Below are positions 1-38,764 of a stretch of DNA of 40,949 nucleotides, in pieces; the stretch's first letter is position 1, and every line of letters starts with the position of its first letter. The translations under genes and the position numbers were made by a program. This DNA is from a virus: positions 1 to 40,949 of the IMG/VR virus record IMGVR_UViG_3300025151_000099, one strand, 5' to 3'. A model generated the notes under the pieces. That model ran no database searches. It was not told the origin of the DNA and worked only from the letters and a program-made list of their open reading frames with translations.

Positions 1-225
1 GTTACTTCAGAAATACAAAGGTCTAATCAATATCTAGCTCAATTAGTACAATTAACAGCACAAATGGTTACAGGGCAAGGTAGTAATGCAACTCCTGTTC
101 CTGTAATGAATTCAGCCCCATCAACTGATATGCCAGGTTCTATGGAAGGACCTGTATATAGAGACAGTAGAAGTAATTTTTATAATTCACCATATAGTAT
201 GCACACACCTGGAGTCCTCGAATAA
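1..225 (+). CDS. C-terminal end of a virion or tail protein (partial)
   Basis: An open frame enters from the left edge and stops at TAA 223-225, giving the last 74 residues of a protein whose start lies outside the window. The first part (about residues 1-25) is Gln/Leu-rich and likely helical; the rest is Pro/Ser/Met-rich and probably disordered, ending in TPGVLE. It lies directly upstream of a tail-tube-cap-like gene, the place where T4 has the tape-measure gene 29, so it may be the end of a tape-measure protein. That is inferred from position and helical character only. Its stop codon lies inside the late promoter of the next gene. Confidence 0.6.
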   Translation, partial: VTSEIQRSNQYLAQLVQLTAQMVTGQGSNATPVPVMNSAPSTDMPGSMEGPVYRDSRSNFYNSPYSMHTPGVLE

Positions 226-228
226 ATA
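221..228 (+). promoter_or_regulatory. T4-type late promoter AATAAATA, leaderless position
   Basis: AATAAATA is followed by 5 bases (ttatc) and then ATG at 234. In T4 the late octamer spans -13 to -6, so +1 falls on the A of the ATG. The TAA of the octamer is also the stop of the preceding gene. It would drive the 234-4646 tail/hub block. Confidence 0.7.
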
Positions 229-233
229 TTATC

Positions 234-1493
234 ATGGCAAGAAAAGATCCATATGCAGATATAATGAATGGTCCGGAAACCCCGGGCTCTTTTGATATCA
301 TAAAAGAATATGATTGGACTTCTGTACCAAGAAATGCGCCTCTACGCGCTGAAGCTCCTTCTGCGTATGTAACCGCTTATGGAATGCAGCATTCTCAACT
401 TAGGCAGTTTATAGACGGTTATATGAATATCTTTTCTCCTAACAATAGTTCGACCTCATACGGGCAAAGTCAAAATCCTGGGTTAGATTTTTATAAGGGT
501 TTGTATAGTGTTAATAAGACTCCTATAGCTCGTTTCAACTTTCCTTTCTTTAATGATAATATGAGGTCTTTTAGTTCTGAATTTGCAGATACTTTTTCAC
601 CTATAAGTCAAAGAGGAGCTCAAATGCTTTTTGGAAATGAGATACAAGGTGCAGGGCAGATGATGGAAAGTCTTGGAGGTGGTGCAGTAGCTACGGGAAG
701 AGCTCTAGGTAGCTTAAATTTTGGAGGCACATCAGTAGCAGATAAAGTAGGTAAACTCTCTGAAAAAGCTGCTCCTTTTGCTAAACAATTTGGCATTACT
801 TTAAATGGTGGTATGCAAACTATAGGTGCTCCAGGTACCTTTATAGAAACACCTAAGTTTTATCAGTACAGTAATACCGATAACGGGGTGCAAGTAGGTT
901 TTACTTTGTCTAATACACTCGAGGATGATGGGTTTGATAAAAATTATGACTTTATAACTAAATTTATTAGATTGAATAGACCGTTTAGAACAGGTCCTAT
1001 TGGAATGACCTTTCCTGCTATTTACAATATAGTAATACCTGGTGTGAGATATATACAGTGGGCTTCATTAGAAGATTTTAATATTAATTTATTAGGAAAT
1101 AGGAGAAAAATATATAAAGAAGGATCAGGTGAAATAATAGTACCTGAAGCGTATACTTGCGAGTTTACTTTTAAGTCACTTACCCTGGAGCCTTCAAACT
1201 TCGTTGATCCTATTTCTAAGTTTTCAGATGGATTTGAAGGGTATAGCGCTGACAGGAGACTTAACGAAAATTTCGCTGCTCAGATAAAGGAAGACATTAA
1301 GAAGGAGCAAGAGGCTAAACAGCGAGAAAATTATCAACAACGCCAGACGAGACAGACACATAAAGAAAATGTAGAAAAGTATGAAGCAGGGAGGCCGGAT
1401 CGTTTTGATTTTATACAAATAACGCCCGAACAAAGACAGGCTGGGTTAGATGCAGCAGAAAATGAACTTGAAAACTTACCAACCCTAAAATAA
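234..1493 (+). CDS. gp48: Tail tube cap / baseplate protein, gp48/gp54-like
   Basis: Likely baseplate protein at the interface with the tail tube, where T4 gp48 and gp54 cap the hub and start tube polymerisation. The 419 residues have a low-complexity Gly/Ala middle (about 130-190) and a conserved-looking C-terminal half with GPIGMTFPAIYNIVIPGVRY, the N-L-L-G-N-R-R-K stretch and VPEAYTCEFTFKSL, the pattern I associate with gp48-type caps in marine T4-like phages. The last 80 residues are a charged E/K/R/Q-rich tail absent from T4 gp48 (364 aa). It precedes gp53 and a gp27-like hub gene with a TAATG junction, which supports a baseplate role. gp54 is the alternative. The start follows a late promoter at leaderless spacing and no Shine-Dalgarno is visible. 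Confidence 0.62.
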   Translation: MARKDPYADIMNGPETPGSFDIIKEYDWTSVPRNAPLRAEAPSAYVTAYGMQHSQLRQFIDGYMNIFSPNNSSTSYGQSQNPGLDFYKGLYSVNKTPIARFNFPFFNDNMRSFSSEFADTFSPISQRGAQMLFGNEIQGAGQMMESLGGGAVATGRALGSLNFGGTSVADKVGKLSEKAAPFAKQFGITLNGGMQTIGAPGTFIETPKFYQYSNTDNGVQVGFTLSNTLEDDGFDKNYDFITKFIRLNRPFRTGPIGMTFPAIYNIVIPGVRYIQWASLEDFNINLLGNRRKIYKEGSGEIIVPEAYTCEFTFKSLTLEPSNFVDPISKFSDGFEGYSADRRLNENFAAQIKEDIKKEQEAKQRENYQQRQTRQTHKENVEKYEAGRPDRFDFIQITPEQRQAGLDAAENELENLPTLK

Positions 1494-1900
1494 TGAGCTT
1501 AACAGGAAAGACAGGAAAATATCAAGATGAAGTACCTGGGTTACCCGGGTTACCGGTGAATCGTTATGAGCGTATATTTAAAGTATATACAGAAAAAAAT
1601 AATGGTAAAGAGTTTTATTTTTACAATATACTTAACAAGATCGAAATGCCTTCTAACATAGATAGCTCTTTACTAGAAACATATACAGTCAAAGGTAATG
1701 AAGCTTTAACTACTACATCTTACAATATTTACGGTGATATTCATAGTTGGTGGATTATATATTTGTTAAACAAAGAAACGATAGGCAATAGTTTTTTTGC
1801 TAAGGGAGGACAAGAACTTAGTTATATTTTACCAGAAATGAGAGGTGTCCTTTACCAGCAAATGACAGACGCTACTGTCTTTAGCAACAAGCACTTCTAA
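1493..1900 (+). CDS. gp53: Baseplate wedge protein gp53
   Basis: Small baseplate protein of the gp53 family (135 aa; T4 gp53 is 196 aa). In T4, gp53 clamps neighbouring wedges around the hub and has a LysM-like fold. The signature is residues 77-93, YNIYGDIHSWWIIYLLN, the Tyr-x-x-x-Gly-Asp-x-x-x-Trp-Trp-x-Ile core typical of gp53. The N-terminal Y-E-R-I-F segment and the F-Y-F-Y-N-I-L-N segment also fit the family. Its start overlaps the stop of the upstream gene (TAATG) and its own stop overlaps the next start the same way, so it is probably translated by reinitiation in a gp48-gp53-hub operon. The C-terminus is shorter than in T4, so this may be the minimal wedge-clamping domain. Confidence 0.8.
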   Translation: MSLTGKTGKYQDEVPGLPGLPVNRYERIFKVYTEKNNGKEFYFYNILNKIEMPSNIDSSLLETYTVKGNEALTTTSYNIYGDIHSWWIIYLLNKETIGNSFFAKGGQELSYILPEMRGVLYQQMTDATVFSNKHF

Positions 1901-4903: not shown

Positions 4904-5022
4904 TTTATTTTAACATTTTTGTTGAGAATTAAATTAACTAAAGCTAATATAAATAATCCAAATAAATATTTTTCTGTTATAATTATATAGAGAGAAAATA
5001 ATATTAAAAAAATTAAAATCAT
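4867..5022 (-). CDS. Small hydrophobic membrane protein (51 aa)
   Basis: A short gene: ATG at 5022-5020, stop TAG at 4869-4867. The start overlaps the gp44 stop as ATGA, the usual sign of coupled translation. The first 33 residues (MILIFLILFSLYIIITEKYL, then FGLFILALVNLIL) are almost entirely hydrophobic with a charged T-E-K break at 16-18, so they could form a two-helix membrane hairpin. The last 18 residues are Lys-rich and polar, suggesting a cytoplasmic tail by the positive-inside rule. It fills the otherwise empty 115 bases between gp44 and the DUF6899-like gene and overlaps the latter by 37 bases. AT-rich DNA can produce hydrophobic frames by chance, which is the main doubt. Confidence 0.55.
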   Translation of the reverse strand: MILIFLILFSLYIIITEKYLFGLFILALVNLILNKNVKIKCLTYNQTKEKK

Positions 5023-6415: not shown

Positions 6416-6423
6416 ATTAAATA
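6416..6423 (+). promoter_or_regulatory. Late-type octamer ATTAAATA before terminase-like gene
   Basis: ATTAAATA followed by 7 bases and ATG at 6431. It shares the TAAATA core of the other late promoters but has the loosest spacing of the set, so it is the weakest member. Confidence 0.45.
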
Positions 6424-6430
6424 TATGTAA

Positions 6431-6871
6431 ATGGCCGAAGAATTAGATGAAGCTGTAAACGATATTATAAGCCAACTAAAGCAAAATAATAAAGTTGCAA
6501 GAACTCCAATAGAAGAAAGTGTTCTAGATAAAGAAGACTTAGAAGATTTTCTTATCCAAAATTCAGGTAAGCTTATAAAAAAATCTCTTAGTATAGTAGA
6601 TAACGTTAACGATTATATTTCTTCTGCTCCGGAAAATAGAGATGTAGCAGCATTAGCTGAACTTATTAAAGCTTCCTCATCAGCTATAGAGACTCTAAAC
6701 AAACTTCATGTAGCTAAAGAAAGAAATGAGACACAGCTTGAAGTTAAGAAGATAGACGTACAAAGTAAGGAGCGTATCAATATTGCAGACAATCAAGCTA
6801 AGATTCTTCTTTCAAGAGAAGATATAATGAACGCTCTTTTAGATGACGATAAGGACGTTATTGACGTTTAA
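6431..6871 (+). CDS. gp16: Probable small terminase subunit (gp16-like)
   Basis: 146 residues, mostly helical and highly charged, similar in length to T4 gp16 (164 aa), which recognises DNA and regulates the gp17 packaging motor. The features I rely on are a central helical stretch with AALAELIKASSSAIETLNKL (about 74-93), typical of gp16-like proteins of marine T4-like phages, and a C-terminal ILLSREDIMNALL (128-140) that resembles the S/T-R-E-E-x-x-x-x-L ending of that family. No large terminase is in the window, so context does not confirm the call. It is a single-gene rightward unit between two leftward blocks, with a late-type octamer upstream as expected for packaging genes. Confidence 0.55.
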   Translation: MAEELDEAVNDIISQLKQNNKVARTPIEESVLDKEDLEDFLIQNSGKLIKKSLSIVDNVNDYISSAPENRDVAALAELIKASSSAIETLNKLHVAKERNETQLEVKKIDVQSKERINIADNQAKILLSREDIMNALLDDDKDVIDV

Positions 6872-7418: not shown

Positions 7419-8015
7419 TTAAACTGAACTTGGACCAGGAGTTAGATCACTTAAGTATTGCTGTGTATATGAAGTAGCAGCAGGTGACGGAGTAACAGCG
7501 TCAGACGGAATATCTGTATTACTATCTGGAAGTGTTCTTTCTGTATCTTCTAAACTGTCATTACCTCTATCAGTCTTATTAGCAATGTTATCATACTTTT
7601 CTACCTCTTCAGGTTTAATATTGACATCGCTTTTTCTTCTTTGAGCATCCGGAATAGGAGGTAGGTTAGGATAAAACTCAACTGACTGACCTAGAGTACT
7701 AGGAATTGAAACGTGATGTGTATATCTTCCGCCGCCAGAATCTAATGCTAAGTCTAGCACTACATCTAAAGTAGTAGTATCAGAATTCGCAGGATATCGA
7801 GCAGATGTAGTATCTTTAATTCCTACTACTCTTACATTAAGACCAGAGTCAATCATCTGCTGAAGTAACTCTTGCGTATTCGATCCAAGAGCTTTAAATT
7901 CGTCTGTGCTCTTAAAATTATCGTTAAATTTAAAACAATCCCCTACTAGGAATCCTCCACGCTCGTATCTTCTCATATAGGATTCGTGTAGATTAATAAA
8001 CTTTTTATCAGCCAT
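7419..8015 (-). CDS. Unrecognised late protein
   Basis: 198 residues from the ATG at 8015 (MADKKFINLHESY). An upstream in-frame start exists at 8039, but a CATAAATA late promoter ends 5 bases before 8015, so the longer form would not be transcribed from it. The N-terminal half is a compact mixed alpha/beta region with a Gly-Gly-Gly turn; the C-terminal third (about 130-198) is Pro/Ser/Asp/Thr-rich and likely disordered. A late promoter suggests a virion or assembly role, though it lies on the strand opposite to most structural genes. I do not recognise the family. Together with the next gene (7 bases away) it forms a two-gene leftward late unit. Confidence 0.8.
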   Translation of the reverse strand: MADKKFINLHESYMRRYERGGFLVGDCFKFNDNFKSTDEFKALGSNTQELLQQMIDSGLNVRVVGIKDTTSARYPANSDTTTLDVVLDLALDSGGGRYTHHVSIPSTLGQSVEFYPNLPPIPDAQRRKSDVNIKPEEVEKYDNIANKTDRGNDSLEDTERTLPDSNTDIPSDAVTPSPAATSYTQQYLSDLTPGPSSV

Positions 8016-8020
8016 ATTAT

Positions 8021-8028
8021 TATTTATG
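8021..8028 (-). promoter_or_regulatory. T4-type late promoter CATAAATA, leaderless position
   Basis: On the minus strand CATAAATA is followed by 5 bases (ataat) and ATG at 8015. The octamer sits inside the longer reading frame and argues for the downstream start. Confidence 0.65.
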
Positions 8029-8060: not shown

Positions 8061-8327
8061 TTAATCTTTAAGAAACTCTGCTAAAGTATGATATGCTGTA
8101 AATACTTCAATTTGATCTTGAGTAGCCTCTCCTAAATCCTCGTCTATTTCAAAAGAATGCGAAGTGGCTACAACCTTCTTTATTACCCATCTATTATTTT
8201 TTAAGTACACATCTCCAAATAACATTGAAGGCAGTTCTAATTTTTCATAAACTGCGTTCTTTACTGCATCTGCTAATTCTGAATTAGAGATATCTACACT
8301 TATACTAGCTTTACCATTAACGACCAT
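8061..8327 (-). CDS. Unrecognised small protein
   Basis: 88 residues starting MVVNGKASISVDI, no family recognised. The sequence suggests a small mixed fold: a short beta strand, a helix (SELADAVKNAVYEKL), strands around WVIKKVVA, and an acidic C-terminal helix. It is preceded by an early-type TATAAT exactly 6 bases from the ATG and by an 18-base sequence shared with the start of the gene at 34680. That suggests early transcription, unlike the late gene downstream. It is divergent from gp25, whose late promoter lies only 40 bases away, so this short gap holds opposed early and late promoters. Confidence 0.75.
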   Translation of the reverse strand: MVVNGKASISVDISNSELADAVKNAVYEKLELPSMLFGDVYLKNNRWVIKKVVATSHSFEIDEDLGEATQDQIEVFTAYHTLAEFLKD

Positions 8328-8331
8328 AATC

Positions 8332-8349
8332 TAATTATATTATAGTTCC
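8332..8349 (-). promoter_or_regulatory. Early-type promoter element, copy 1 of a shared 18-mer
   Basis: On the minus strand GGAACTATAATATAATTA contains two overlapping TATAAT boxes; the second (8339-8334) is 6 bases from the ATG at 8327, placing +1 on the start codon. The same 18 bases occur upstream of the gene starting at 34680. No good -35 TTGACA is seen. Confidence 0.6.
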
Positions 8350-8367
8350 TTTATCCTGATATGCTAC

Positions 8368-8375
8368 ATTAAATA
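8368..8375 (+). promoter_or_regulatory. Late-type octamer ATTAAATA before gp25
   Basis: ATTAAATA, 6 bases, ATG at 8382. First promoter of the large rightward baseplate/fibre block. Confidence 0.6.
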
Positions 8376-8381
8376 TAATAA

Positions 8382-8870
8382 ATGGCTCTCATTAAACTAA
8401 CAGATATTGCAGCTAGTGATTTAGATAATTCTTCATTAGAGAGAGGTTATTTGTATAAAGATTTATTTTTAGATTTAAAGACTACAGTCTACTACAATAA
8501 ACAACTTAATAAAAACTCAGTACTTAAGGATGTTCAAGCGTCTTTTGATGAAAATGCTATTCGTAATAGTATAACTAACATCTTTTTAACTGCTCCAGGA
8601 GAAAAAATACTAAGTCCTGAATTTGGTTTAGATCTTAGAAGATATCTATTTGAGCCTATTTCAGACTTTAATGCATTTGCTATTAAAGACGATATTGATA
8701 ATAGATTACCATTAATGGAGCCGCGAGTTGAGGTAGAAAATGTAGAAGTTGTTCCCTTACCGGATGATAATGAATATATTATCTCTCTACAAATAAACAT
8801 ACCTTCCTTAAATGTGTATGGTTTATCACTAAGATCAACATTAAATAACAATGGGTATTTTATATTTTAA
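8382..8870 (+). CDS. gp25: Baseplate wedge subunit gp25
   Basis: Baseplate wedge/sheath-initiator protein of the gp25 family (162 aa; T4 gp25 is 132 aa), which seeds sheath polymerisation on the baseplate. The conserved core is clear: NAIRNSITNIFLTAPGEKIL, then P-E-F-G-L-D-L-R-R-Y-L-F-E-P (about 60-95), the Pro-x-Phe-Gly and Leu-Phe-Glu motifs typical of gp25, and EPRVEVENVEVVP near 107-120. The N-terminus is longer than in T4. It is followed 5 bases later by gp6, the same order as in many T4-like phages, and starts the long virion block behind a late promoter. Confidence 0.9.
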   Translation: MALIKLTDIAASDLDNSSLERGYLYKDLFLDLKTTVYYNKQLNKNSVLKDVQASFDENAIRNSITNIFLTAPGEKILSPEFGLDLRRYLFEPISDFNAFAIKDDIDNRLPLMEPRVEVENVEVVPLPDDNEYIISLQINIPSLNVYGLSLRSTLNNNGYFIF

Positions 8871-15752: not shown

Positions 15753-16291
15753 ACACTTTTACTCTCTCCATATCTTCATCTAATACAGATATAAATAGAC
15801 AGATAGTACAAAAAACTATCAACTTATTTGATTTGACGGAAATGACACTAGATATTTCTAACATATATACTGAAATATTTCCTAGTTATTTAAGTATTGA
15901 TTGGGGAGATGGGAGTCCAACTATTCAACCAGATATAAAAATATATAGAGATTATAAAACTGAATCAATATTTCCTGAACTTCAAAAGGGTGTTACGCCA
16001 GTAACTTTTAGTACTAATTATAAGCATAGATATTTCCCTTCTTCATACGCTTTAAAGAAGTCGTTAATTTTTAAATTAAATGTTGGGTATATTACCGGTG
16101 AAACTATGCAATTGAGTGCACCAGTAGTAGTTCATTCACAAGGTTATTATGAAAATGTAGATGATATAGATATAATTGGTCTAGATCTAATTAACGATGC
16201 TAATAATTCTTCACGTATATCTTTTCTTACTAAAAAAAACAATTATATAGTACAGTTAGATAACAAATCTTATAAAGAGAATAAACAATAA
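15749..16291 (+). CDS. Small PKD-like virion protein
   Basis: 180 residues that look like one PKD/Ig-like beta sandwich: the strand-turn SIDWGDGSPTIQPD (residues about 50-63) is the W-G-D-G motif of PKD domains, and S-T-N-Y-K-H-R-Y-F-P at 88-97 takes the place of the usual H-x-Y-x-x-x-G strand. It follows the 947-residue protein with an ATGA overlap, so the two are probably made together and may form a complex. PKD domains usually mediate protein-protein contact or act as spacers. It is the second PKD-like domain in this baseplate block. The stop TAA lies in the late promoter of the next gene. Confidence 0.75.
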   Translation: MNTFTLSISSSNTDINRQIVQKTINLFDLTEMTLDISNIYTEIFPSYLSIDWGDGSPTIQPDIKIYRDYKTESIFPELQKGVTPVTFSTNYKHRYFPSSYALKKSLIFKLNVGYITGETMQLSAPVVVHSQGYYENVDDIDIIGLDLINDANNSSRISFLTKKNNYIVQLDNKSYKENKQ

Positions 16292-16294
16292 ATA
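16287..16294 (+). promoter_or_regulatory. T4-type late promoter AATAAATA
   Basis: AATAAATA, 6 bases, ATG at 16301. The TAA of its core is the stop codon of the preceding gene. Confidence 0.65.
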
Positions 16295-16300
16295 TATAAA

Positions 16301-18709
16301 ATGGGGTGTTTAGTAAAGTCAAGTTTAAGTGCTTTAAGTTCAGTACAAGGTACTGTATGCCCTACCGACTTATCTTTAGATCAATATAAGCAAACTTTCA
16401 GCGGTGGGTTTAGTTTTAACTTTATATCAGCTCTATCAGGTATACAAGATTTTAAAAAATTAAATCATACCAATTTTTATTTAAGTAATGAATTTTTACT
16501 TGATAATGTAACTTCCTATAATGAAGTTAGTGTAAAGCCCGAATCTTTTTATACGACGCTTAATTTTACTACTTCAAGTGAAAATTATTTAAATTTTAGA
16601 GCTGCTTCATTAAGCTCATTTAAGAATAATGATAATATTTTCGATTCTGAATTTTATGGCAGTACTACATTTACTGAAGTTTTATCTAATGCTAATAACT
16701 TTGAAATAAAATTTATAGATGATTTTACGTGTAGCATAAGTACTATAAACAATAATATAAAATACTTTTTAGTAGTTAGTGATAATATAGAATATAGAAC
16801 TAGTGCTAAACCGCTTTTAGGTGGAGGAACGATAACTTATTCTGACAGCGTAAATAATAAGCGTAAAGTATTATTTGTAGCTGAAAATAAACTTATTGAT
16901 AAGAGCTCGTCTTATCTAGAGTATAGCTTAATAAAATATAAAACTGATAGTTTTATAAATTTATATTCTAGTAAAGAGGATGGTAAATATGCCATAATTG
17001 ATGATGGGGGTATAGTATATGCGGAGTTATTATTAGAAGAAAGTGAGCTTAATCAATTTTATGTGTCTAGTAATTCTATAAAATTAAATCAAGAGGTTAA
17101 CGTTTCCGTACCATCTCCATACAACACTTCATTTGTTACATATGATAATGAAGGAAAAATTGATAATAGTAAAAGCGATTTTCATCTACCTTCAAATTAC
17201 TTATTTTATTCTTCTAGCAATAAAACCGAATTAGATTTTAATTTTTTCAATCTTAAAAATATAACTAATACTCAGGATCAATTTACCTCCTCTAATAATT
17301 TATTATCTACTTCTGAAACAACAATATATAGCCAAAATTTAAGAAAGTATACTTCAATATTTTCTGATATCGATAGCGAAAATAATGAAGTTTTAGCATT
17401 AAACTTTATATATCATAACTATGATTTAACTATAAAGCCTGGTACAACTTTTTTTAAAACACCTTCTTCGATGGAGCCTTTCGATAAACTCAATATTAAT
17501 GATACTAAATTTACTAAATGCGGCGCCTTTGCATTTAAGAGACCTGATCTCTCCGATAGAGTTTATAAGTTAGATGATAATTCAATAAAAGATGAAAATG
17601 TTACTTATCTATGTACTTGGTTATCAGGCGGTATAGGAAAAGAAGGTATCTGGGTAGATAGATACTACTACCCAGATTTAGTTTCAAAAGAAGCAGCTTT
17701 AGCGGCTTCTCCTGTTTATAATGTAACTTATCAACAATCAGTTGAGGATTTAATAATGAATAATTCTACTACTAAAAGTTCAGTAGAGAAGAAATTGTAT
17801 ATAGATAAGAAAAGTGATTTAACTTTTGAGCCCAATAAACGATATAAGTATGTAAGAGTTTCAAAGAATGATTTTATTAGAGAGTCACCTACCAATTTTT
17901 GTAAAACTGCTAGAGTTAACAATCGTGTAAATAATTATTTTAGAACTATAAATGAAAACGGTGGTTTTAGTTTAGGATTTACTCTACAGAATGAAGCGGG
18001 TGACTTTTCTCTAATATCTGATAGTAATGATATTAATGGAGGTATAGACTTTACTAAGCAAGGAGACAGTATAACATTTACATTTAAATTATTTGACAAT
18101 AGCACTGACGGAAAAAGTATTGAACAGAGATTAGCTCAAAACACTTTTACACATAATTTTAGTATTGATAAATTTGATAAAAATAATATATTTCTATCAT
18201 TTAATGCAATTGAAGGAATATGTAATCTATATTTAAATTCCAATATAATATTTACTTTTAATGTAAATGCTTATCAATTATATACCAAGAAAATTTTATT
18301 TGGAGATTTATTTTTGTCGTGGAATGTAAATGATAAAAAATTAAAGAGAGAAATTTTGTACAATGATGCTACATCTAAACTTTTTATAAGTGATTTATAT
18401 TTAACTTTAGATCCTTTAGAAAAGTATCAAGAGTTAGGTTATGTTTTTGGAACTAATATAGATAATATACAGGATTTATCAATTTCTTTACCTTGTGGAA
18501 TGAGAAATTTGACTGATACAATAAGAGCGGTTAATTCTATAAATACAAATTTGAAAAATAAGAGCAATATTATAGATATTAATATTAAAAATTTAAACAT
18601 AAAATCTGAAGTAGCAGATGAAATTAAAGATGTATTATTATCAAATATAATTAAATCTCTACCTAAAACATCAACTATTAACAACGTTAAATTCGTAGAT
18701 TATAAATGA
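16301..18709 (+). CDS. Large unrecognised virion protein (802 aa)
   Basis: 802 residues, no recognised family, dominated by Ser, Asn, Thr, Phe and Asp, as in beta-rich tail proteins. Residues about 550-705 (G-F-S-L-G-F-T-L near 552, then strands with INGGIDFTKQGDSITFTFKL and a G-I-C-N-L-Y-L-N-S strand) could be a jelly-roll or LamG-like sandwich, followed by a helical C-terminus with Ile/Asn/Lys repeats. That fold call is tentative. The N-terminal Cys3 and Cys20 do not make a signal peptide or lipobox. It overlaps the next gene (ATGA) and lies between wedge-like and fibre genes, so it is probably an outer baseplate or fibre-attachment protein. Confidence 0.78.
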   Translation: MGCLVKSSLSALSSVQGTVCPTDLSLDQYKQTFSGGFSFNFISALSGIQDFKKLNHTNFYLSNEFLLDNVTSYNEVSVKPESFYTTLNFTTSSENYLNFRAASLSSFKNNDNIFDSEFYGSTTFTEVLSNANNFEIKFIDDFTCSISTINNNIKYFLVVSDNIEYRTSAKPLLGGGTITYSDSVNNKRKVLFVAENKLIDKSSSYLEYSLIKYKTDSFINLYSSKEDGKYAIIDDGGIVYAELLLEESELNQFYVSSNSIKLNQEVNVSVPSPYNTSFVTYDNEGKIDNSKSDFHLPSNYLFYSSSNKTELDFNFFNLKNITNTQDQFTSSNNLLSTSETTIYSQNLRKYTSIFSDIDSENNEVLALNFIYHNYDLTIKPGTTFFKTPSSMEPFDKLNINDTKFTKCGAFAFKRPDLSDRVYKLDDNSIKDENVTYLCTWLSGGIGKEGIWVDRYYYPDLVSKEAALAASPVYNVTYQQSVEDLIMNNSTTKSSVEKKLYIDKKSDLTFEPNKRYKYVRVSKNDFIRESPTNFCKTARVNNRVNNYFRTINENGGFSLGFTLQNEAGDFSLISDSNDINGGIDFTKQGDSITFTFKLFDNSTDGKSIEQRLAQNTFTHNFSIDKFDKNNIFLSFNAIEGICNLYLNSNIIFTFNVNAYQLYTKKILFGDLFLSWNVNDKKLKREILYNDATSKLFISDLYLTLDPLEKYQELGYVFGTNIDNIQDLSISLPCGMRNLTDTIRAVNSINTNLKNKSNIIDINIKNLNIKSEVADEIKDVLLSNIIKSLPKTSTINNVKFVDYK

Positions 18710-20919: not shown

Positions 20920-20922
20920 ATA
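20915..20922 (+). promoter_or_regulatory. Late-type octamer ATTAAATA
   Basis: ATTAAATA, 5 bases (agatt), ATG at 20928. The TAA of its core is the stop codon of the preceding gene. Confidence 0.6.
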
Positions 20923-20927
20923 AGATT

Positions 20928-23315
20928 ATGGCTAACAAAGGAGAAAGTTTAAAGGGATTAAGGATAGCAGATTACTATTCTTCTTTACTACATCTTAGTG
21001 GTGCAAACACTCCTACAGCTACGACCAGTATGACTCTTCAGTTCATTGGCGATGTGGGAGTTCCCGTAACTACACAAACTAGAGAAGGAAATAATTTAAT
21101 TTATGATGGGTTAGGTAATACAACTGGTATCCATATTAGTAGTAATAACGATAGAGTTACATTTAATAACTATATCATGCCGGCAGCTACTGATGATGAA
21201 ATTAATTATTTCATCGCTCAAGAATTTTATACTACTAGTTGGTCGCCGACTAGATTCATTCTCGGGGATGTTATTCGTGAAGCTGTATCAGGAAACGCTA
21301 TAGAATTTTTAGAAGCATTTTACCCTATAAATAGCATTATTTTAACTGCAACTAACGATAACCCTACAAATAGAATAGCAGGTACGAAATGGGTTCTTGA
21401 ATCAGGTGGAAGATTTACGGTTGGAGCGGGGGGTGAAGAAAAAACTTTTTCTCCCGGGTATGGGGGGTTTTCTTCTGGAGATATAGCAGGTGAATACGAG
21501 GTTAAATTAGATAGTAATAATTTACCAGCTCACACACATGACGTTAATGTAAGGACGTTAGAAATTGGTAATACTATTTTTAAAAATATATTTTGTTATT
21601 ATTTTGGACCTACAGTTAATCCACGTGGATTAACAGAAGAATTAGCTTTTAGTGAAACTTCTGATTTATTGCCTGATGTTTCTGATAACCCTTATTCTTA
21701 TTTTCTCGGTCAGGATGAAATAGAAGCTTTTCAAAATAATACCCTTTTTGAAAACCAAGAAAATTATAGGGATTATTTAATAAAAAAGAGACATGAAGAA
21801 GGTTACCGGTATACAGATACTGATTTTGATCCTAAGTTAGCTAGTTATTCATTAGCTGGGTGGGGTGGGTCAGTTACTGGAGGACCAGGATGGGGAGGGT
21901 TTCTGCAAACTGAGATTCCTAATACTAAAATTTTTATAACTTATAGTCCTAGACCTGTTGGAGTAAGATGGAATTCACAAGGTATAATTTTAGAAGCTGC
22001 AGATTATGATCCACGAGATATAGATAGAGTGCATCCGGGTGTTTTTAGCTCAGAAAATTTAATAAAAGCGCGTAATATAATTATTGATGTATTAGGAGAA
22101 GAGCAAGCAGCTATTGCTTTAGCGGGTGTAAATAGATTACGTGAGTTAGATGAACCTGTAGAGAATGCTTCATTAAATTTTTATGTTAATGAACAGGTTA
22201 AAGGATCTACTTTAGTTCGTTCATCAAATACTGGAACAACAACCAGTCATAATAATATTGTACCTAACTATGGTATATATATGTGGAGAAGAGTTCCTTT
22301 AGATTATATTGAGCCTGAATATGAAGTAGGAGGTAATACTGAAATTATACCTCAAGGTAATATATTTAGAGGTACTATTACTACTAATAAAGAAAATTTA
22401 AGATTAGATGATTGGGCAAGAGATAGAGGATGGAATGGTATAGATCCTGCTGAAATTACAATAAATGCTGGAGTTTATATATTTTCTGATGATACTGATA
22501 TACCAGCTTTAACTACTGGAAATTGGGAAAACGGTTTAACATTAACTAATAACGGGTTTATAATGGGAAGAGGTGGCGATGGTGGATCTTTGGCGGCAGT
22601 TAGAAGATTAGATGTAGCTCCCCCTGAAGGTAAAAGTGAATGGTCTGGTTATGATGGTGGAGATGCTATATTTGTAAATACACCTGATCGTGTTAATATT
22701 ATTAACACCAATGGAGCTATAGCAGGAGGTGGCGGTGGTGGCGCAGGAAGCGGTACAGGTAACTTTGGTGGAGGTGGCGGTGGCGCTGGAGGCGGTAATG
22801 GTGGTCTAGGTGCTGGTCCAAATCAAAATGAAGCTGGTGGTAAAGGAGGCGCGCCTGGTGAACCTGGTGGTGATGGGGGAAATTGGAAAAATCTTACTAC
22901 TGATAGAGTGTATGCGAGAAGAAGAGCCTTTTTGCAGGGTAGGGGCGGACAAGCAGGCGGCGGTGGTTCGGGTGGATTTAAAGCTAAGGGTAATGATCCA
23001 CACGGCGGGGGTGGTGGAGGAGGGAGAATTCTTACTATAGATTCTTCAGGGGGTAGAGGTGGAGATTATGGAGGAGGAGATGGAGGTTCTTCTAATCGAA
23101 AAGGTGTAACTGTAAATTCACGTGAAAATGTCCCATGGGGTAATGCTGCAGGAGGAGGTGGGTGGGGTGCCGATGGAGGTGATTGTTTAAGAAAAAGATC
23201 TGTTAGTGGCGTTTCTGGTTTACCTGTTGGTGGTAAGGGTGGAAAAGCTATAACGTCAATAGAAAATTCTCAATACACTATAACCGGTGGTATTATATAC
23301 GGTGCACAAGAGTAG
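20928..23315 (+). CDS. Tail fibre/adhesin with glycine-rich receptor-binding region
   Basis: 795 residues. The N-terminal 70 residues carry DYYSSLLHLSGA, shared with the next gene, perhaps an attachment segment. Residues about 129-210 form a collar-type domain: F-Y-P-I-N-S-I-I-L-T, R-I-A-G-T-K-W-V-L-E-S-G-G-R-F, then LPAHTHDVNV with the His-x-His typical of trimeric short fibres, where it can coordinate metal. A W-R-R-V-P segment near 445-450 ends that module. From about 545 to 790 the sequence is packed with Gly runs separated by short hydrophobic or charged stretches, like the glycine-rich polyproline-II adhesins of T4-like phages (gp38 of S16/T2 type). This is the most likely host-receptor-binding protein. 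Confidence 0.8.
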   Translation: MANKGESLKGLRIADYYSSLLHLSGANTPTATTSMTLQFIGDVGVPVTTQTREGNNLIYDGLGNTTGIHISSNNDRVTFNNYIMPAATDDEINYFIAQEFYTTSWSPTRFILGDVIREAVSGNAIEFLEAFYPINSIILTATNDNPTNRIAGTKWVLESGGRFTVGAGGEEKTFSPGYGGFSSGDIAGEYEVKLDSNNLPAHTHDVNVRTLEIGNTIFKNIFCYYFGPTVNPRGLTEELAFSETSDLLPDVSDNPYSYFLGQDEIEAFQNNTLFENQENYRDYLIKKRHEEGYRYTDTDFDPKLASYSLAGWGGSVTGGPGWGGFLQTEIPNTKIFITYSPRPVGVRWNSQGIILEAADYDPRDIDRVHPGVFSSENLIKARNIIIDVLGEEQAAIALAGVNRLRELDEPVENASLNFYVNEQVKGSTLVRSSNTGTTTSHNNIVPNYGIYMWRRVPLDYIEPEYEVGGNTEIIPQGNIFRGTITTNKENLRLDDWARDRGWNGIDPAEITINAGVYIFSDDTDIPALTTGNWENGLTLTNNGFIMGRGGDGGSLAAVRRLDVAPPEGKSEWSGYDGGDAIFVNTPDRVNIINTNGAIAGGGGGGAGSGTGNFGGGGGGAGGGNGGLGAGPNQNEAGGKGGAPGEPGGDGGNWKNLTTDRVYARRRAFLQGRGGQAGGGGSGGFKAKGNDPHGGGGGGGRILTIDSSGGRGGDYGGGDGGSSNRKGVTVNSRENVPWGNAAGGGGWGADGGDCLRKRSVSGVSGLPVGGKGGKAITSIENSQYTITGGIIYGAQE

Positions 23316-24506: not shown

Positions 24507-26003
24507 ATGGCAAATGTAACTATAGTAAAATTAAAGGTAAGGCGAGGATCAGACGCTCAACGTAAAACTATTGTCTTAGATCAAGGAGAAATTGGTTATA
24601 CATTAGATACTAGACGTTTATTTGTAGGTGATGGATCAACATTTGGTGGTAGGTCAGTGGGTACAAAGAATATTGGCCCGTTTACTGCAGTGGGTGATTT
24701 AGGTCCAGATAGTTCACCAGGTATGCAGATAGGTGATATAGGTTATGCAGATAGTAAGTTATATATGCTAACTTCAACTAATTATGATAATGCATTATCC
24801 GGATATGCTTACATAGGTAATTTACCTGATGATAGTTTTTTACAGTTTGATGATAATAATAAATTAACTATAAAACCCGGTGCAATGGATGCTAGCTATT
24901 TCACACCAGGATTTTTTAGTACAGGCCTACTATCCTCGTGGAATGGTACTAATAATGTAGTTTCAGTAAATACTAACTCAGCTTATTTTGAGCTTTCAGC
25001 TAATACCATTACTCCAATAGCTAATTCAATAACTGAAAGAGAAATTAAAACTACTGCTCTTTCTTCAGGTTTGATAGGAGGAGATAATGTACCTTTAAAA
25101 CTTAACATTAACTCTGATCAATTCGAGTTTGATATCGACCAAAAATTATCTTTTAAATCAGTTGGTACTAGAACTATACCAACATCAAGCTGGGCCGGAG
25201 CTGAAGGAAGTAACTTAGCGGGCGGTGGTTTATCTTTAAACGCCTCGCAAAATCTGCAAGCAGACTTAAGAACAGTAAATAATAATACATTTTCAGTAAC
25301 TGATGGTCAAATATCATTATTTGGAGCTACTTCATCAGCTCAAGAGTTTCCTTTTTTAACTACAAGAGATGGATTAATTAAACAAATTCAATCTTCTATT
25401 TTTGATGTTGTAACTGGCATCTCGTTATCAGGTCAAAATACTAGTAGTCAAATACCTATAGGTGCTATACTACCGCATGCTAAAGCTTGGGAAAATTCAA
25501 TACCTGCTGGCTTCTTATTGTGTAATGGAGGTAGTTATTCACGAACTGAATATGCTGATTTATTCAAAGTAATAGACACAAGTTATGGTAGCGGTGATGG
25601 AAGTGGTAATACATTTAGTGTGCCTTGCTTAACAGGTGGTGGCATGGAGAGCGTATTATACGGTAATGCAGGAGAAGCACCAGGTAACGTAGCAGGTGAT
25701 AGTAAATTCTTAACTGGTGATGCATCTTCCTCTGGTGCACTACTTAGTGCACTTGGAGTAAATTATATTATAAAGTATAAAGAAGACCCCCTACTAGGAA
25801 TATTTAACGGTGCTCCTAACTCTGTTTCTAACGGTCTTATAGGGAGTCAAAATAATCAAGTTTATAATGGTTTAAATAGTGATGGAGCAGCAGTTTCATT
25901 AAGTTCAGCAGGATTTATAACTTTTGCTTTATCAGGTGAAGTACGTAATCCGGATAGTGAAGAGACTTTTGATAAATTTGCAATACCAATTTTTAACTAC
26001 TAA
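24507..26003 (+). CDS. Tail fibre with Mtd_N-like N-terminus and collar domain
   Basis: 498 residues. The N-terminus (about 5-55) has L-K-V-R-R-G-S-D-A-Q-R-K-T-I-V-L-D-Q-G-E-I-G-Y-T, then L-F-V-G-D-G-S-T-F-G-G, the pattern of the major-tropism-determinant N-terminal domain seen on many fibres. The middle is Ser/Asn-rich beta material. Residues about 315-390 are a phage tail collar domain: IPIGAILPHAKAW, P-A-G-F-L-L-C-N-G-G-S-Y-S-R-T-E-Y-A-D-L-F, S-G-N-T-F-S-V-P. The C-terminal 110 residues are a possible tip. It shares this plan with the next gene. It starts 4 bases after the previous stop without its own clear promoter. Confidence 0.82.
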   Translation: MANVTIVKLKVRRGSDAQRKTIVLDQGEIGYTLDTRRLFVGDGSTFGGRSVGTKNIGPFTAVGDLGPDSSPGMQIGDIGYADSKLYMLTSTNYDNALSGYAYIGNLPDDSFLQFDDNNKLTIKPGAMDASYFTPGFFSTGLLSSWNGTNNVVSVNTNSAYFELSANTITPIANSITEREIKTTALSSGLIGGDNVPLKLNINSDQFEFDIDQKLSFKSVGTRTIPTSSWAGAEGSNLAGGGLSLNASQNLQADLRTVNNNTFSVTDGQISLFGATSSAQEFPFLTTRDGLIKQIQSSIFDVVTGISLSGQNTSSQIPIGAILPHAKAWENSIPAGFLLCNGGSYSRTEYADLFKVIDTSYGSGDGSGNTFSVPCLTGGGMESVLYGNAGEAPGNVAGDSKFLTGDASSSGALLSALGVNYIIKYKEDPLLGIFNGAPNSVSNGLIGSQNNQVYNGLNSDGAAVSLSSAGFITFALSGEVRNPDSEETFDKFAIPIFNY

Positions 26004-26006
26004 ATA
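25999..26006 (+). promoter_or_regulatory. Late-type octamer ACTAAATA
   Basis: ACTAAATA, 6 bases (ttaaca), ATG at 26013. The TAA of the core is the preceding stop codon. Confidence 0.5.
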
Positions 26007-26012
26007 TTAACA

Positions 26013-27713
26013 ATGTCAATAGAAATTTTAGAAAATACTTTAATTAAACTCTTAGTTAGAAGAGGAACTAACAATGATAGAAAAAACATTACTCTAGAGA
26101 GTGGTGAATTAGGGTTTACTACCGATACACAAAACTTATTTATAGGTGATGGTAGTACAAAGGGTGGTTTAATTGTTGGTAATAAATTTAAAGGAACGAA
26201 TGCTGATGTTACAAATCTCGCCCCATGCTTAACTGGTGATTATGGATTTGAAACTAGTACTAATACTTTAAAAGTTTTAGTTGGAGGGTCCGGATCTGAG
26301 GCAACAGATTGGTTAGAGGTTTCTAATCTTTTAAGTTCGAGAGATGGTACTATAGAAATAAATGATCAAAATCAAATTACGGTTTCTGTACTATCTTCAG
26401 GTAATTTATCACCAGATTGTTTAGGTAAATCCTTACAATTAGTTGCAGATCAAGTATCCCTGAGTTCTGATATTGAGATAGATGTTATAAGACGAGCCAC
26501 TACAGAATCAGATAGTTATTTGTCTCTCCCTACGCAATTAAAAATAAGTAATATTAATTATAACTTCCCGGGAGTTGCTCCTTCTAACAATTCTTTTTTA
26601 GGCTCAGATACTTCTGGTAATTTAAATTGGTCAGTACCAAGTATTATAAGTACTGGAGTAGCTCCTACAACAGCAAGTGTCTTACCTGTAGGTACTATTG
26701 TACCTTTTGCTTCTGCGAGTAATGGTGTACCTTATGGTTGGTTAGAATGTGATGGAGCAGAGTATGCTAGTAATTCTGAGTATTCAGATCTTTCAGCTGT
26801 TATAGGTACCGATTATAATACAGGTGGTGAAACTGCTGATCATTTTAGAGTGCCTAATTTATTATCAAAAGCACTTTATGGTGTACCTAATGGGGTTCCA
26901 GCTGGAAGTACGGTATACCCTGTAACAACAGGGTCTCATACAGCACCTAGTCTCTCAGCTACTGGAATGAATTTCTTAATTAAAGCAATAGGTGGTATTA
27001 CTGCACCTACCTTAACTATAAGTAAGAATTTATCTGCTACATTAACTAATCCTGCAGGAACAGCATCTGTTAGCAAAACAGGGGTTACATTTAACCCGTT
27101 AAGTGGTTCTATTACTATTGAAAGACCTGCTCCGGGTCAAGAAGTCTTTACTAATGCTGGTGATACAGTATTTACTGTACCGGATGGTATACATTATATT
27201 AAATATACTGTTACTGGTACAGGTACTAAAGGTGGTGCATCACCTGGAGGTGCTGGTGCTACTGCCATGGGATACCTTTCTGCTTCACCTGGTATTACAT
27301 TTACTGTAACTGTAGGTGAAGGATTTCAACAAACAGATGCGCCAACAGATGGTCGTGCTTCTTCAATAAAAATTGGTACAGGTGCTGGTGCTACTGCTAT
27401 AGTAACAGCTGATGGAGGCATTTACGAAGGAGGAAATGGTCAGAGTGCAGCAGAGGGTAATAATCGTCAAACACCCAGTGCAACTGCTGGTGGTACTATC
27501 GATACGTCTAGTCCGTATATATTAAATGGTCATGTTATTAATGGTGGATCAGGCTTACAAGATACGTCAGGAGGTAAAGGTAAAGAAGAATCATTAGGAG
27601 CAGCTTCATATTTTGGAACTTCCCCTGCTCCTGGAGGAGGTCAAGCCTCACATTCAACTAATCCTATAGGTCCTCCACCTTCGAATGGTATTGTTATCTT
27701 AGAGTGGTCATAG
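26013..27713 (+). CDS. Tail fibre with Mtd_N-like N-terminus, collar domain and Gly-rich tip
   Basis: 566 residues, paralogous to the upstream fibre: VRRGTNNDRKNITLESGELG and L-F-I-G-D-G-S-T-K-G-G near residues 14-55, then a collar domain at about 224-300 (LPVGTIVPFA, P-Y-G-W-L-E-C-D-G-A-E-Y, D-H-F-R-V-P-N-L). It differs in the C-terminal 200 residues, which start with an Ig-like Thr/Ser stretch (about 330-372) and end in a Gly/Ala/Ser-rich beta region with G-S-G-L-Q-D-T-S-G-G-K-G and a closing I-V-I-L-E-W-S. That ending resembles Gly-rich adhesin tips of other fibres (a Gly-rich domain ending in a hydrophobic strand). Probably a second host-recognition protein. Confidence 0.82.
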   Translation: MSIEILENTLIKLLVRRGTNNDRKNITLESGELGFTTDTQNLFIGDGSTKGGLIVGNKFKGTNADVTNLAPCLTGDYGFETSTNTLKVLVGGSGSEATDWLEVSNLLSSRDGTIEINDQNQITVSVLSSGNLSPDCLGKSLQLVADQVSLSSDIEIDVIRRATTESDSYLSLPTQLKISNINYNFPGVAPSNNSFLGSDTSGNLNWSVPSIISTGVAPTTASVLPVGTIVPFASASNGVPYGWLECDGAEYASNSEYSDLSAVIGTDYNTGGETADHFRVPNLLSKALYGVPNGVPAGSTVYPVTTGSHTAPSLSATGMNFLIKAIGGITAPTLTISKNLSATLTNPAGTASVSKTGVTFNPLSGSITIERPAPGQEVFTNAGDTVFTVPDGIHYIKYTVTGTGTKGGASPGGAGATAMGYLSASPGITFTVTVGEGFQQTDAPTDGRASSIKIGTGAGATAIVTADGGIYEGGNGQSAAEGNNRQTPSATAGGTIDTSSPYILNGHVINGGSGLQDTSGGKGKEESLGAASYFGTSPAPGGGQASHSTNPIGPPPSNGIVILEWS

Positions 27714-34450: not shown

Positions 34451-34680
34451 ATATTACCCATAGTGGCTTCTACTTTTAAGTCATGTTTCATTGAATGAAA
34501 TCTTTCATCAATGTATTTTTGAAAAGCTAGAGGCTTAACCCACTTATCATTATCAGTATTTACATCTTGTTTATCTACAACTTCAAGAGCTTCTACTAAA
34601 CAACACCACCTAACTAACTCATCGAACTCCATAGTTTTAGTAGTACCGTCTTTTAAGTTAAAATTATATTCTTTATTCAT
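34447..34680 (-). CDS. Unrecognised small early protein (77 aa)
   Basis: 77 residues starting MNKEYNFNLKDGTTKTMEFD, with a Cys-Cys pair at about 26-27, no family recognised. The first 20 residues look like a beta hairpin and the rest is helical and charged. It has an early-type TATAAT 6 bases from its ATG, in an 18-base sequence identical to the one upstream of the gene starting at 8327. Its stop overlaps by four bases the stop of the giant gene. The promoter lies at the 3' end of the upstream membrane-protein gene. Confidence 0.72.
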   Translation of the reverse strand: MNKEYNFNLKDGTTKTMEFDELVRWCCLVEALEVVDKQDVNTDNDKWVKPLAFQKYIDERFHSMKHDLKVEATMGNI

Positions 34681-34684
34681 AATA

Positions 34685-34702
34685 TAATTATATTATAGTT
34701 CC
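34685..34702 (-). promoter_or_regulatory. Early-type promoter element, copy 2 of the shared 18-mer
   Basis: On the minus strand GGAACTATAATATAATTA; the second TATAAT (34692-34687) is 6 bases from the ATG at 34680. The match to 8332-8349 continues (one mismatch) to the start codon: TA[G/T]ATT then ATG. Confidence 0.62.
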
Positions 34703-35142: not shown

Positions 35143-35495
35143 ATAGCTATTTTAGCTAAATCTTCTGGAATATCAAGGATAAGTTCGTTTATTTTATCTA
35201 TTTTATTATTAATATTATCTATAGCTCCTTTATTAATACCTTTATATGGTAGTTGAGTAGGACCTTCTTCTGGTTGATTTTTAACACGGGATAGCATGTT
35301 TCTTAATTCTGCAAGAGAAACAAATACATTACCAAGCATTTCGTTCATTTCGTTTAAATCATAAGGTAGTATAGGCGGTGCCTTTTGATGCTTTTCGTCA
35401 TCTTTATACTTTGATTCTTGACCACTAGTAGTCATTTTAAAATTAATTGGTGTATCATCTGGATTAACACTATAAGGAAATTCTGCTCCATTCAT
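35139..35495 (-). CDS. Unrecognised late protein (118 aa)
   Basis: 118 residues with a polar N-terminal 45 (Asp/Lys/Gln-rich, probably flexible) and a helical second half, L-N-E-M-N-E-M-L-G-N-V-F-V-S-L-A-E-L-R-N-M-L then N-I-N-N-K-I-D-K-I-N-E-L-I-L-D-I, which looks like a short helical hairpin or coiled coil. No family recognised. A CATAAATA late promoter ends 5 bases before the ATG, divergent from the promoter of the 35528 gene only 6 bases away. It is the first gene of a leftward pair with the membrane zinc-ribbon protein (ATGA overlap). Confidence 0.78.
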   Translation of the reverse strand: MNGAEFPYSVNPDDTPINFKMTTSGQESKYKDDEKHQKAPPILPYDLNEMNEMLGNVFVSLAELRNMLSRVKNQPEEGPTQLPYKGINKGAIDNINNKIDKINELILDIPEDLAKIAI

Positions 35496-35500
35496 ATATT

Positions 35501-35508
35501 TATTTATG
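35501..35508 (-). promoter_or_regulatory. T4-type late promoter CATAAATA (leftward)
   Basis: CATAAATA on the minus strand, 5 bases (aatat), ATG at 35495. Confidence 0.66.
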
Positions 35509-35514
35509 CTAGAG

Positions 35515-35522
35515 AATAAATA
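35515..35522 (+). promoter_or_regulatory. T4-type late promoter AATAAATA (rightward)
   Basis: AATAAATA, 5 bases (atttt), ATG at 35528. Divergent from 35501-35508 within 32 bases between the two start codons. Confidence 0.68.
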
Positions 35523-35527
35523 ATTTT

Positions 35528-35971
35528 ATGACCAAATTCGAAAGACGATTTTTTAAGAAGCTAAACAATATTAACGAAGATGTTGAAGAGAGAGAAGCAT
35601 TTGAAGCTGAACTTGATGATAACACAGATGCTGGAGATTTTGATGTAGATCTTGAGGTTGATCAAACTGCAGTAGAAGAAGATCCGAGTGTTAAAGCAGC
35701 CCAAGCTGTAAATGAGCGTAACGAATCAATGAAAGAGGAGCTTAGAGGTTGGATTGGAAAAATGGAAGAGTTTTTAGATTATCTTAACGGTGAAGAGTCT
35801 AATTCTATTCAGCAGCAGTTAGCTAATGCTGAACCAGATACTATTTTTGATAGAATGAAAGCTTCAGAACAGAGAAAGCTAGCAAGAGTTGCAACAGAGT
35901 TAGCTGGAGTTACTGAGTCTTTTAAAGGATACTTAGCGCAGACAGGAAATTCTCAGTTTAAGTATGTTTGA
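35528..35971 (+). CDS. Unrecognised acidic late protein (147 aa)
   Basis: 147 residues. The N-terminus is basic (MTKFERRFFKKLNNI) and is followed by a very acidic stretch (about 18-58), then a helical domain (about 60-140) with W-I-G-K-M-E-E-F-L-D-Y-L and R-K-L-A-R-V-A-T-E-L. No family recognised; small acidic helical late proteins can be virion or scaffold components, but nothing decides. It is a single-gene unit: a late promoter at leaderless spacing upstream and an intrinsic terminator 34 bases after the stop. Its 3' end overlaps the convergent primase gene by 19 bases. Confidence 0.8.
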   Translation: MTKFERRFFKKLNNINEDVEEREAFEAELDDNTDAGDFDVDLEVDQTAVEEDPSVKAAQAVNERNESMKEELRGWIGKMEEFLDYLNGEESNSIQQQLANAEPDTIFDRMKASEQRKLARVATELAGVTESFKGYLAQTGNSQFKYV

Positions 35972-37882: not shown

Positions 37883-38117
37883 TTTTATTATATTGAGCTT
37901 CTACTACTTTAAATATATCTTTAGGGAGTTCTTCTACTAATTTAATTATATCATTGTTCCTTCCGGAATTAAACGATTCTACTGGAATTTTAACATTCTC
38001 CATTTTAGGTATGGAGAGACAACCTATAAAATCTTTTTCTATTTCAACAACCGCGAACATTTGACCGACATAATCTCCTGTTTCAACAGCAAATATCTGG
38101 TTTTTAGAGCAATTCAT
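37803..38117 (-). CDS. Unrecognised replication-block protein (104 aa)
   Basis: 104 residues from ATG at 38117 (MNCSKNQIFAVETGDYVGQM). A longer frame from 38135 would need a non-ATG start and more overlap with the upstream gene. The first 55 residues look like a small beta barrel (Q-I-F-A-V-E, G-Q-M-F-A-V-V-E-I, F-I-G-C-L-S-I-P); the C-terminus is helical then polar. Similar small proteins sit beside replication genes in other T4-like phages, but I do not know a function. It overlaps the upstream gene by 14 bases and the exonuclease gene by 80 bases, an unusually long overlap in two frames. Confidence 0.72.
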   Translation of the reverse strand: MNCSKNQIFAVETGDYVGQMFAVVEIEKDFIGCLSIPKMENVKIPVESFNSGRNNDIIKLVEELPKDIFKVVEAQYNKNEDPDSRRKQFNTPNILYSEKSVEKN

Positions 38118-38424
38118 CAGTGTCTGGATTAACACCCTTTATTGTTTGAATTTCTGTTGCGAAATATTTCATTAAGAAAGAGTTTAATGCTTCTTTTTGT
38201 TGAGGTGTTTTTGCAGCTTTTATATCTAAATGTTTGCCACTAAAATCATACCCTAACAATATGTAACTATCTAAATATTCACATAAAATAGTTCCTAATC
38301 TATTAGCTAACTCCTTACGGCTTTTAAAAGATTTACGTTCTTTAATATTATCTTTAAGAGCACGTTCGACTAACTCCCTAAGCTCTTCATCTTCCTCATG
38401 AGAGTTGTCTTCATTTTCATCCAT
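38104..38424 (-). CDS. Unrecognised helical protein with own late promoter (106 aa)
   Basis: 106 residues. The N-terminal 20 are strongly acidic (MDENEDNSHEEDEELRELVE); the rest is helix-strand with S-R-K-E-L-A-N-R-L-G-T-I-L, Y-I-L-L-G-Y-D-F-S-G-K-H (a conserved-looking strand-turn) and K-T-P-Q-Q-K-E-A-L-N. It ends D-E-L-L, faintly like the clamp-binding tail of T4 gp33 (112 aa), but the rest does not match gp33, so I do not make that call. A late promoter ends 5 bases before its ATG although it lies inside the replication block, so it and the genes after it may also be expressed late. Confidence 0.75.
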   Translation of the reverse strand: MDENEDNSHEEDEELRELVERALKDNIKERKSFKSRKELANRLGTILCEYLDSYILLGYDFSGKHLDIKAAKTPQQKEALNSFLMKYFATEIQTIKGVNPDTDELL

Positions 38425-38428
38425 AAAA

Positions 38429-38764
38429 TTATTTATTCAAAAAATCACTTTCAAACTTTTGTCTTACCCCACTCTTTAAGAGCTTTTGAACAACAACTTC
38501 TATCGAATCAGTCTTTAAGCTGAGATTATTTTTAAATAATTGATTACCATCATTAAATTGAAATAAGTATTCGCCCTTAAACGGTGTATTTTCAAAACAA
38601 GTAACAAATACAGAAGATCCTGAAGGATCAATTAAAACAGTCCATCTTCTAGGGTCTGATTCACTATACTTATTAAAGATACGCAAGGTTACAAAATCAT
38701 TATCCTTAAGTCTCTTTATAAAATAGCCAGGGGTTTTTAGTTTATTCTTTTTTTGATTGATCAT
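38429..38764 (-). CDS. Unrecognised replication-block protein (111 aa)
   Basis: 111 residues starting MINQKKNKLKTPGYFIKRLK. Residues about 12-75 are beta-rich: D-F-V-T-L-R-I-F-N-K-Y, R-R-W-T-V-L-I-D, S-S-V-F-V-T-C-F, G-E-Y-L-F-Q-F-N-D. The C-terminal helix ends F-E-S-D-F-L-N-K. The Pro-Gly-Tyr-Phe-Ile-Lys-Arg-Leu-Lys opening and the R-W-T-V-x-I-D-P motif look like a conserved phage family that I cannot name. It directly follows gp45 with a one-base TAATG junction, so it may work with the clamp. Its stop codon forms part of the late promoter of the next gene. Confidence 0.75.
   Translation of the reverse strand: MINQKKNKLKTPGYFIKRLKDNDFVTLRIFNKYSESDPRRWTVLIDPSGSSVFVTCFENTPFKGEYLFQFNDGNQLFKNNLSLKTDSIEVVVQKLLKSGVRQKFESDFLNK
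38430..38437 (-). promoter_or_regulatory. T4-type late promoter AATAAATA inside the replication block
   Basis: On the minus strand AATAAATA, 5 bases (atttt), ATG at 38424. It overlaps the last codons and stop (AAT AAA TAA) of the preceding gene. Confidence 0.65.

Follow-up and report, generated by a model that had tools for sequence, protein, structure and literature searches.

Where do the late mRNAs of a T4-like phage begin when the late promoter stands only a few bases ahead of the start codon? This question is raised by a 40,949-base IMG/VR fragment of an uncultured marine T4-like myovirus (IMGVR_UViG_3300025151_000099; its full length is hereinafter referred to as the window), in which 14 octamers ending in TAAATA were found 5 to 7 bases upstream of an ATG. 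These octamers are very likely T4-type gp55-dependent late promoters; judging from the sequence, their +1 would be the A of the ATG or lie 1-2 bases ahead of it, and the mRNAs would be leaderless or carry a 1-2-nt leader. The genes recognisable in the window included those for the gp44 clamp loader, the gp25 and gp6 baseplate wedges, primase gp61, an RNase H/exonuclease-type protein, a gp32-like single-stranded DNA-binding protein (SSB), and the gp45 clamp. Named phages were distant: the clamp loader shared at most 41% identity with those listed, e.g., Pelagibacter phage Mosig, and a nucleotide search against named phages with one window segment (16301-20900) gave no match. Many close relatives were present in IMG/VR, of which 80 were kept; two were near-complete, judged by length, namely G1 (G001, 170,908 bases) and G3 (G003, 196,877 bases).

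Octamer-to-ATG spacing in the window and its relatives

The gap was defined as the number of bases between TAAATA and ATG, and an annotation-free histogram was built from each TAAATA followed, at gaps 0-40, by an ATG opening at least 60 codons. All 14 octamers listed by the first-pass annotation were re-found, each at the position and spacing given there, and the types agreed as well (AA 5, AT 4, CA 3, GA 1, AC 1). Eight had a gap of 5, five a gap of 6, and one a gap of 7; outside gaps 5-7, the histogram held one match each at gaps 1, 3, 28, and 35 and zero elsewhere. The near-fixed distance was tighter than in shuffled sequence: dinucleotide shuffling of the 50 nt upstream of the 39 called window genes (2000 trials) gave 0.36 such sites on average and never more than 4, against 14 observed. 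Anagrams of the hexamer produced no comparable spike, apart from registers overlapping TAAATA. All 14 sites fit the 8-bp TATA-box form NNTAAATA, and the strict TATAAATA was absent at these window starts. The predicted late octamers are as follows.

221..236 (+): octamer AATAAATA, gap 5, ATG 234, 419 aa; 7/7 distinct orthologues at gap 5 or 6
6416..6433 (+): octamer ATTAAATA, gap 7, ATG 6431, 146 aa; divergent from 6376(-)
8013..8028 (-): octamer CATAAATA, gap 5, ATG 8015, 198 aa; 42/42 orthologues at gap 5
8368..8384 (+): octamer ATTAAATA, gap 6, ATG 8382, gp25-like baseplate wedge, 162 aa
12895..12911 (+): octamer GATAAATA, gap 6, ATG 12909, 947 aa; 23/23 orthologues at gap 6
16287..16303 (+): octamer AATAAATA, gap 6, ATG 16301, 802 aa; 11/11 orthologues at gap 6
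20915..20930 (+): octamer ATTAAATA, gap 5, ATG 20928, 795 aa, tail fibre-like; conserved in relative L090
23335..23350 (+): octamer CATAAATA, gap 5, ATG 23348, 384 aa; two relatives, at gap 5 and gap 6
25999..26015 (+): octamer ACTAAATA, gap 6, ATG 26013, 566 aa, tail collar-like; gap 6 in L090, longer gap in L101
27906..27921 (+): octamer AATAAATA, gap 5, ATG 27919, 70 aa; gap 5 in L090
28135..28151 (+): octamer ATTAAATA, gap 6, ATG 28149, 287 aa; gap 6 in L090
35493..35508 (-): octamer CATAAATA, gap 5, ATG 35495, 118 aa, one half of a divergent pair; two relatives, at gap 5 and gap 7
35515..35530 (+): octamer AATAAATA, gap 5, ATG 35528, 147 aa, partner of 35495(-) in the divergent pair; both relatives have gap 5
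38422..38437 (-): octamer AATAAATA, gap 5, ATG 38424, 106 aa; gap 5 in L102

The same placement was found across the clade. TAAATA stood at gaps 5-7 ahead of 49 genes in G1 (1.6 expected from shuffles) and 47 in G3 (1.9 expected), compared with none in T4 (1.4 expected). Counts at gaps 5, 6, and 7 at the level of open reading frames (ORFs) were 36, 16, and 3 in G1 and 37, 10, and 8 in G3, over a background of about 1-2 per position. The lower edge was sharp: gaps 0-4 were empty or nearly so, and counts jumped at gap 5. Among the orthologues of the gene at 8382, 43/43 had the octamer at gaps 5-8, 38 of them at gap 6. For the gene at 6431 the count was 32/33 (22 at gap 5, 9 at gap 7, 1 at gap 8), and the A at spacer position 6 was kept although the ATG shifts from gap 7 in the window to gap 5 in most relatives. 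Codons 2-12 of the orthologues vary mostly at third positions, and these ATGs are therefore real starts. Window genes without an octamer mostly lacked one in the relatives too, and no start overlapping an upstream gene carried one (0/54, 0/51, and 0/13). Elsewhere in intergenic DNA, TAAATA was not enriched (10 vs. 10.4 and 12 vs. 13.1 expected), which argues that leadered late promoters are few.

At the divergent pair, both predicted promoters lie within a 32-bp intergenic region, and the 35495(-) site holds two overlapping TAAATA copies, at gaps 5 and 1. The TAAATA at gap 3 ahead of the clamp-loader start 5942(-) was taken as chance, as gaps 5-7 were not kept in 40 orthologues. In addition, a 1813-aa ORF (29009-34450, +) contained repeated blocks on the opposite strand, ATACC-TAAATA-YTC, near 29851, 30523, and 32740.

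Promoter identity and the predicted transcription start

T4 late promoters depend on gp55, gp33, and gp45, the last of which is the activator of late transcription. Homologues of gp55 were identified in G1 (145 aa; E 7e-8 against PDB 7d7c) and G3 (151 aa), their genes lying outside the window fragment, and a clamp homologue was found in the window itself:

38764..39486 (-): gp45 sliding-clamp homologue (iterated jackhmmer from HTVC008M gp45, E 4e-67)

Base counts over the 25 bases upstream of TAAATA revealed no -35-like consensus, and the divergent TAAATA cores, only 10 bp apart (35501-35522), leave no room for a -35 element. In G1, the octamer preceded 7 of 13 recognised late genes (gp3-like, gp13, gp18, gp19, gp20, gp21, and gp25), compared with none of the 13 replication genes (gp32, gp41, gp43, gp44, gp46, gp47, gp55, gp61, uvsX, uvsW, rnh, phoH, and nrdA).

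The T4 octamer is numbered from -13 (PMC2988020), which places +1 at the sixth base after TAAATA. This base was a purine at 17/22 T4, 13/13 Melnitz, and 30/37 Syn9 sites, and Mosig was purine-rich as well. At all 14 window sites it was A, whether that of the start codon or one shortly before it; the base is forced at gap 5 and free at the gap-6 and gap-7 sites, where A was found in 6/6. The preceding base was T or C in 79/81 gap-5 sites of the window, G1, and G3; among genes without the octamer, roughly half had a pyrimidine at -1. The reading of the first-pass annotation, that there is no room for a 5' untranslated region, is thus supported in silico by the spike, its edge at gap 5, conservation across numerous divergent relatives, the A at the predicted +1, and the absence of Shine-Dalgarno (SD) sites; the different picture in T4 and cyanophages and the restriction to operon heads and recognised late genes argue in the same direction.

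Several points weigh against this reading. No gp33 co-activator, a short and diverged protein, was found by iterated search. The gap-6 sites of one relative had A at position 6 in only 5/10 cases, which leaves the exact +1 free to shift by one base. In the window, 10/14 octamer genes sit downstream of a co-directional gene, and read-through mRNAs may also carry them, giving leadered copies. Start site, promoter activity, timing, and translation mode are all predictions from sequence, and +1 rests on promoter position. Further, the capsid gene gp23, outside the window, is the clearest exception: it has a long leader with an SD-like AAAGGAAA site in G1 and G3, and the phage is therefore not wholly leaderless.

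The gp23 leader pattern was present in 77 contigs (L196:8672-8816, corresponding to G001:C1 near 120196, and 76 others). The promoter, CA(C/T)AAATA, shares bases with the end of the ORF before it and is followed by a leader of about 60-75 nt with two hairpins, then AUGAAAGGAAACGUC and the start codon. The second hairpin had changed on both sides of three pairs, and this covariation points to a conserved structured leader RNA. No Rfam match was obtained for the leader, and thermodynamic folding alone gave no signal (z 0.73).

Other promoter classes, ribosome-binding sites, and alternative explanations

Promoters of other types appeared to be placed alike. TTGA-N17..21-TATAAT was enriched upstream of non-octamer genes (7 vs. 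0.17 and 9 vs. 0.20 expected), and these sigma-70-like promoters ended mostly 5-7 nt ahead of the ATG, including those of gp32, uvsX, uvsY, and gp55 of G1. TATAAT at gaps 5-8 was found 20 times in G1 (2.5 expected) and 24 times in G3 (2.4 expected), compared with 0 in T4 (1.6 expected). A third type, with AAGGAAC just upstream of TATAAT and often the same placement, had many sites in G1 and G3 and is possibly a phage-specific early or middle promoter class. At 8327(-), GGAAC with TATAAT or TATACT at gaps 5-8 was kept in 40/40 orthologues. The window examples are as follows.

8325..8351 (-): AAGGAAC-TATAATATAAT-N6-ATG 8327, GGAAC-type promoter, 88 aa; box 8345-8351, same start-codon geometry
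34678..34702 (-): GGAAC-TATAATATAAT-N6-ATG 34680, GGAAC-type promoter, 77 aa; box 34698-34702, same geometry
40767..40803 (-): start of the gp32-like SSB, TTGAAG-N16-TATAAT-N6-ATG 40769, sigma-70-like promoter, leaderless geometry; TTGA and TATAAT (gap 6) in both relatives

Hence the first-pass reading of a leaderless geometry at late genes is supported but too narrow in tying it to them, and leaderlessness probably extends to most transcripts in all classes.

The reported scarcity of SD sites was confirmed. SD 4-mers occurred at 3% of window starts and at 8% and 7% of those in two relatives, with downstream controls of 12%, 3%, and 6%; the clade was thus not above background. The corresponding values were 55% (control 3%) in T4 and 46% in HTVC008M. 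The translational repressor RegA (PF01818), present in T4 and HTVC008M, was not detected in G001, G002, or G003, which fits the disappearance of ribosome-binding sites carried in leaders. Translation factors encoded by the phage itself were considered and rejected, as three relatives showed neither a bS21 nor an IF3 domain. Both near-complete relatives had transfer-messenger RNA genes (RF00023, about 133 bits) whose predicted tag peptides are unusually long (L096:4252-4661(-) and L097:15777-16193(-)). A Bacteroidota host, suggested by the missing SDs, was rejected: TAnnTTTG was not clearly enriched (4 vs. 2.8 and 9 vs. 4.2), the paired form of this promoter was at background, and TTGA-N17..21-TATAAT was enriched instead. 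A host genome scan gave only distant matches (26-29% identity), and the contig of a Polaribacter metagenome-assembled genome lacked the pattern.

One alternative is that TAAATA belongs to longer mRNAs and acts in translation initiation, as an A/U-rich or Kozak-like contact with the ribosome, rather than as a promoter. In Flavobacterium and E. coli, A at -3 and -6 serves in place of the SD or alongside it (PMC6847099), and SDs are missing in the clade. However, the -3 base of octamer genes was T in 59% and 45% and A in only 24% and 32%; moreover, the octamer was never found at starts overlapping an upstream gene, was absent, in one relative, from all 13 replication genes recognised there, and is the T4 late motif, which in T4 and cyanophages stands 20-29 bases ahead of the ATG. 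What speaks most strongly for leaderless transcripts is that different, unrelated promoter sequences share the spacing that puts +1 at the AUG or beside it, and a translation element is accordingly considered very unlikely.

A similarly slim chance is given to real late promoters whose initiation is shifted several bases upstream, with leaders of about 3-8 nt. The +1 position is taken from T4, and a few G3 sites lie at gaps 7-9, as such a shift would allow; against it stand the lower edge at exactly gap 5, the pyrimidine at spacer position 5 followed by A at position 6, as in a typical pyrimidine-purine start, and the sigma-70-like promoters, which have their own spacing rule and also put +1 at the ATG or beside it. 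Chance placement of TAAATA ahead of ATGs in AT-rich DNA would be favoured by the composition of the window (68% AT, 97 TAAATA copies), but it is refuted by the shuffles, the anagrams, and conservation in every orthologue examined for four genes, and its probability is negligible.

If the mRNAs are leaderless, those starting at the AUG would be read by 70S ribosomes binding the 5'-terminal AUG, as expected from what is generally known of such mRNAs (PMC9031893). Translational coupling would give access to the internal cistrons, many of them overlapping the gene in front, and the same promoter-on-ATG arrangement would serve most operons in all classes.

Related systems and implications

T4 late transcription is a textbook system, with mRNAs that carry leaders and ribosome-binding sites. 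The window shares with it a TATAAATA-like octamer, the lack of a -35 element, gp55 and gp45 homologues, and octamers at structural genes on both strands, although AATAAATA, the commonest form here, is a minority variant in T4. The proposed comparison with other T4-like phages set the clade apart: octamers peaked at gaps 24-29 in T4, with SD-bearing leaders, and at about 20-28 in the cyanophages S-PM2 and Syn9, SD sites being present in cyanophages as well, compared with 5-7 and no SD here. RM378 (Rhodothermus), phiM9, ACP17, KVP40, DLP_6, and XG4 showed no gap-5 excess over a reversed-pattern control. In Pelagibacter phage HTVC008M, 13 genes had TAAATA at gaps 5-7 (1.2 expected); at the ORF level, 12 sites had a gap of exactly 5, most of them at starts annotated independently, e.g., 18916(-), 18943, 19456, and 31132; 12/14 gap-5 sites coincided with annotated starts. 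Unlike the clade, nearly half of its genes have an SD, the fused octamer is confined to a minority, and its sigma-70-like promoters are not fused to starts. HTVC008M is thus an intermediate, partial version.

Outside the T4-like phages, most middle and late mRNAs of Thermus phage phiYS40 have been shown experimentally to be made without leaders (PMC3594737). That phage belongs to another lineage and host, whereas here the promoters are of T4 late type and early-type promoters also appear leaderless. In Deinococcus-Thermus, leaderless mRNA arises from a -10 motif that is joined to the ORF and lies within a few bp of its ATG (PMC12340547); a bacterial sigma factor is involved there, in contrast to three promoter types of a phage. 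The late promoters of phiKZ have a TATG motif overlapping the start site (PMC7598289), but they are unrelated and serve a phage-encoded multisubunit RNA polymerase. None of the papers searched described leaderless transcripts in T4-like phages. Leaderless phage transcripts are already known from phiYS40; what is new here is that they are combined with T4-type promoters and span several temporal classes.

On balance, we lean towards the view that a whole marine T4-like clade relocated nearly all of its promoters to start codons, whatever their temporal class, and gave up SDs and RegA, with a structured leader retained mainly for gp23. If so, simple start-site rules would be available for annotating phages of the clade, and the cultured HTVC008M, with its partial version, makes the idea testable now. 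The host would be predicted to initiate translation without SD sites, and promoter position and translation mode would have been re-engineered together across a large genome, in a common marine branch of the T4 family.

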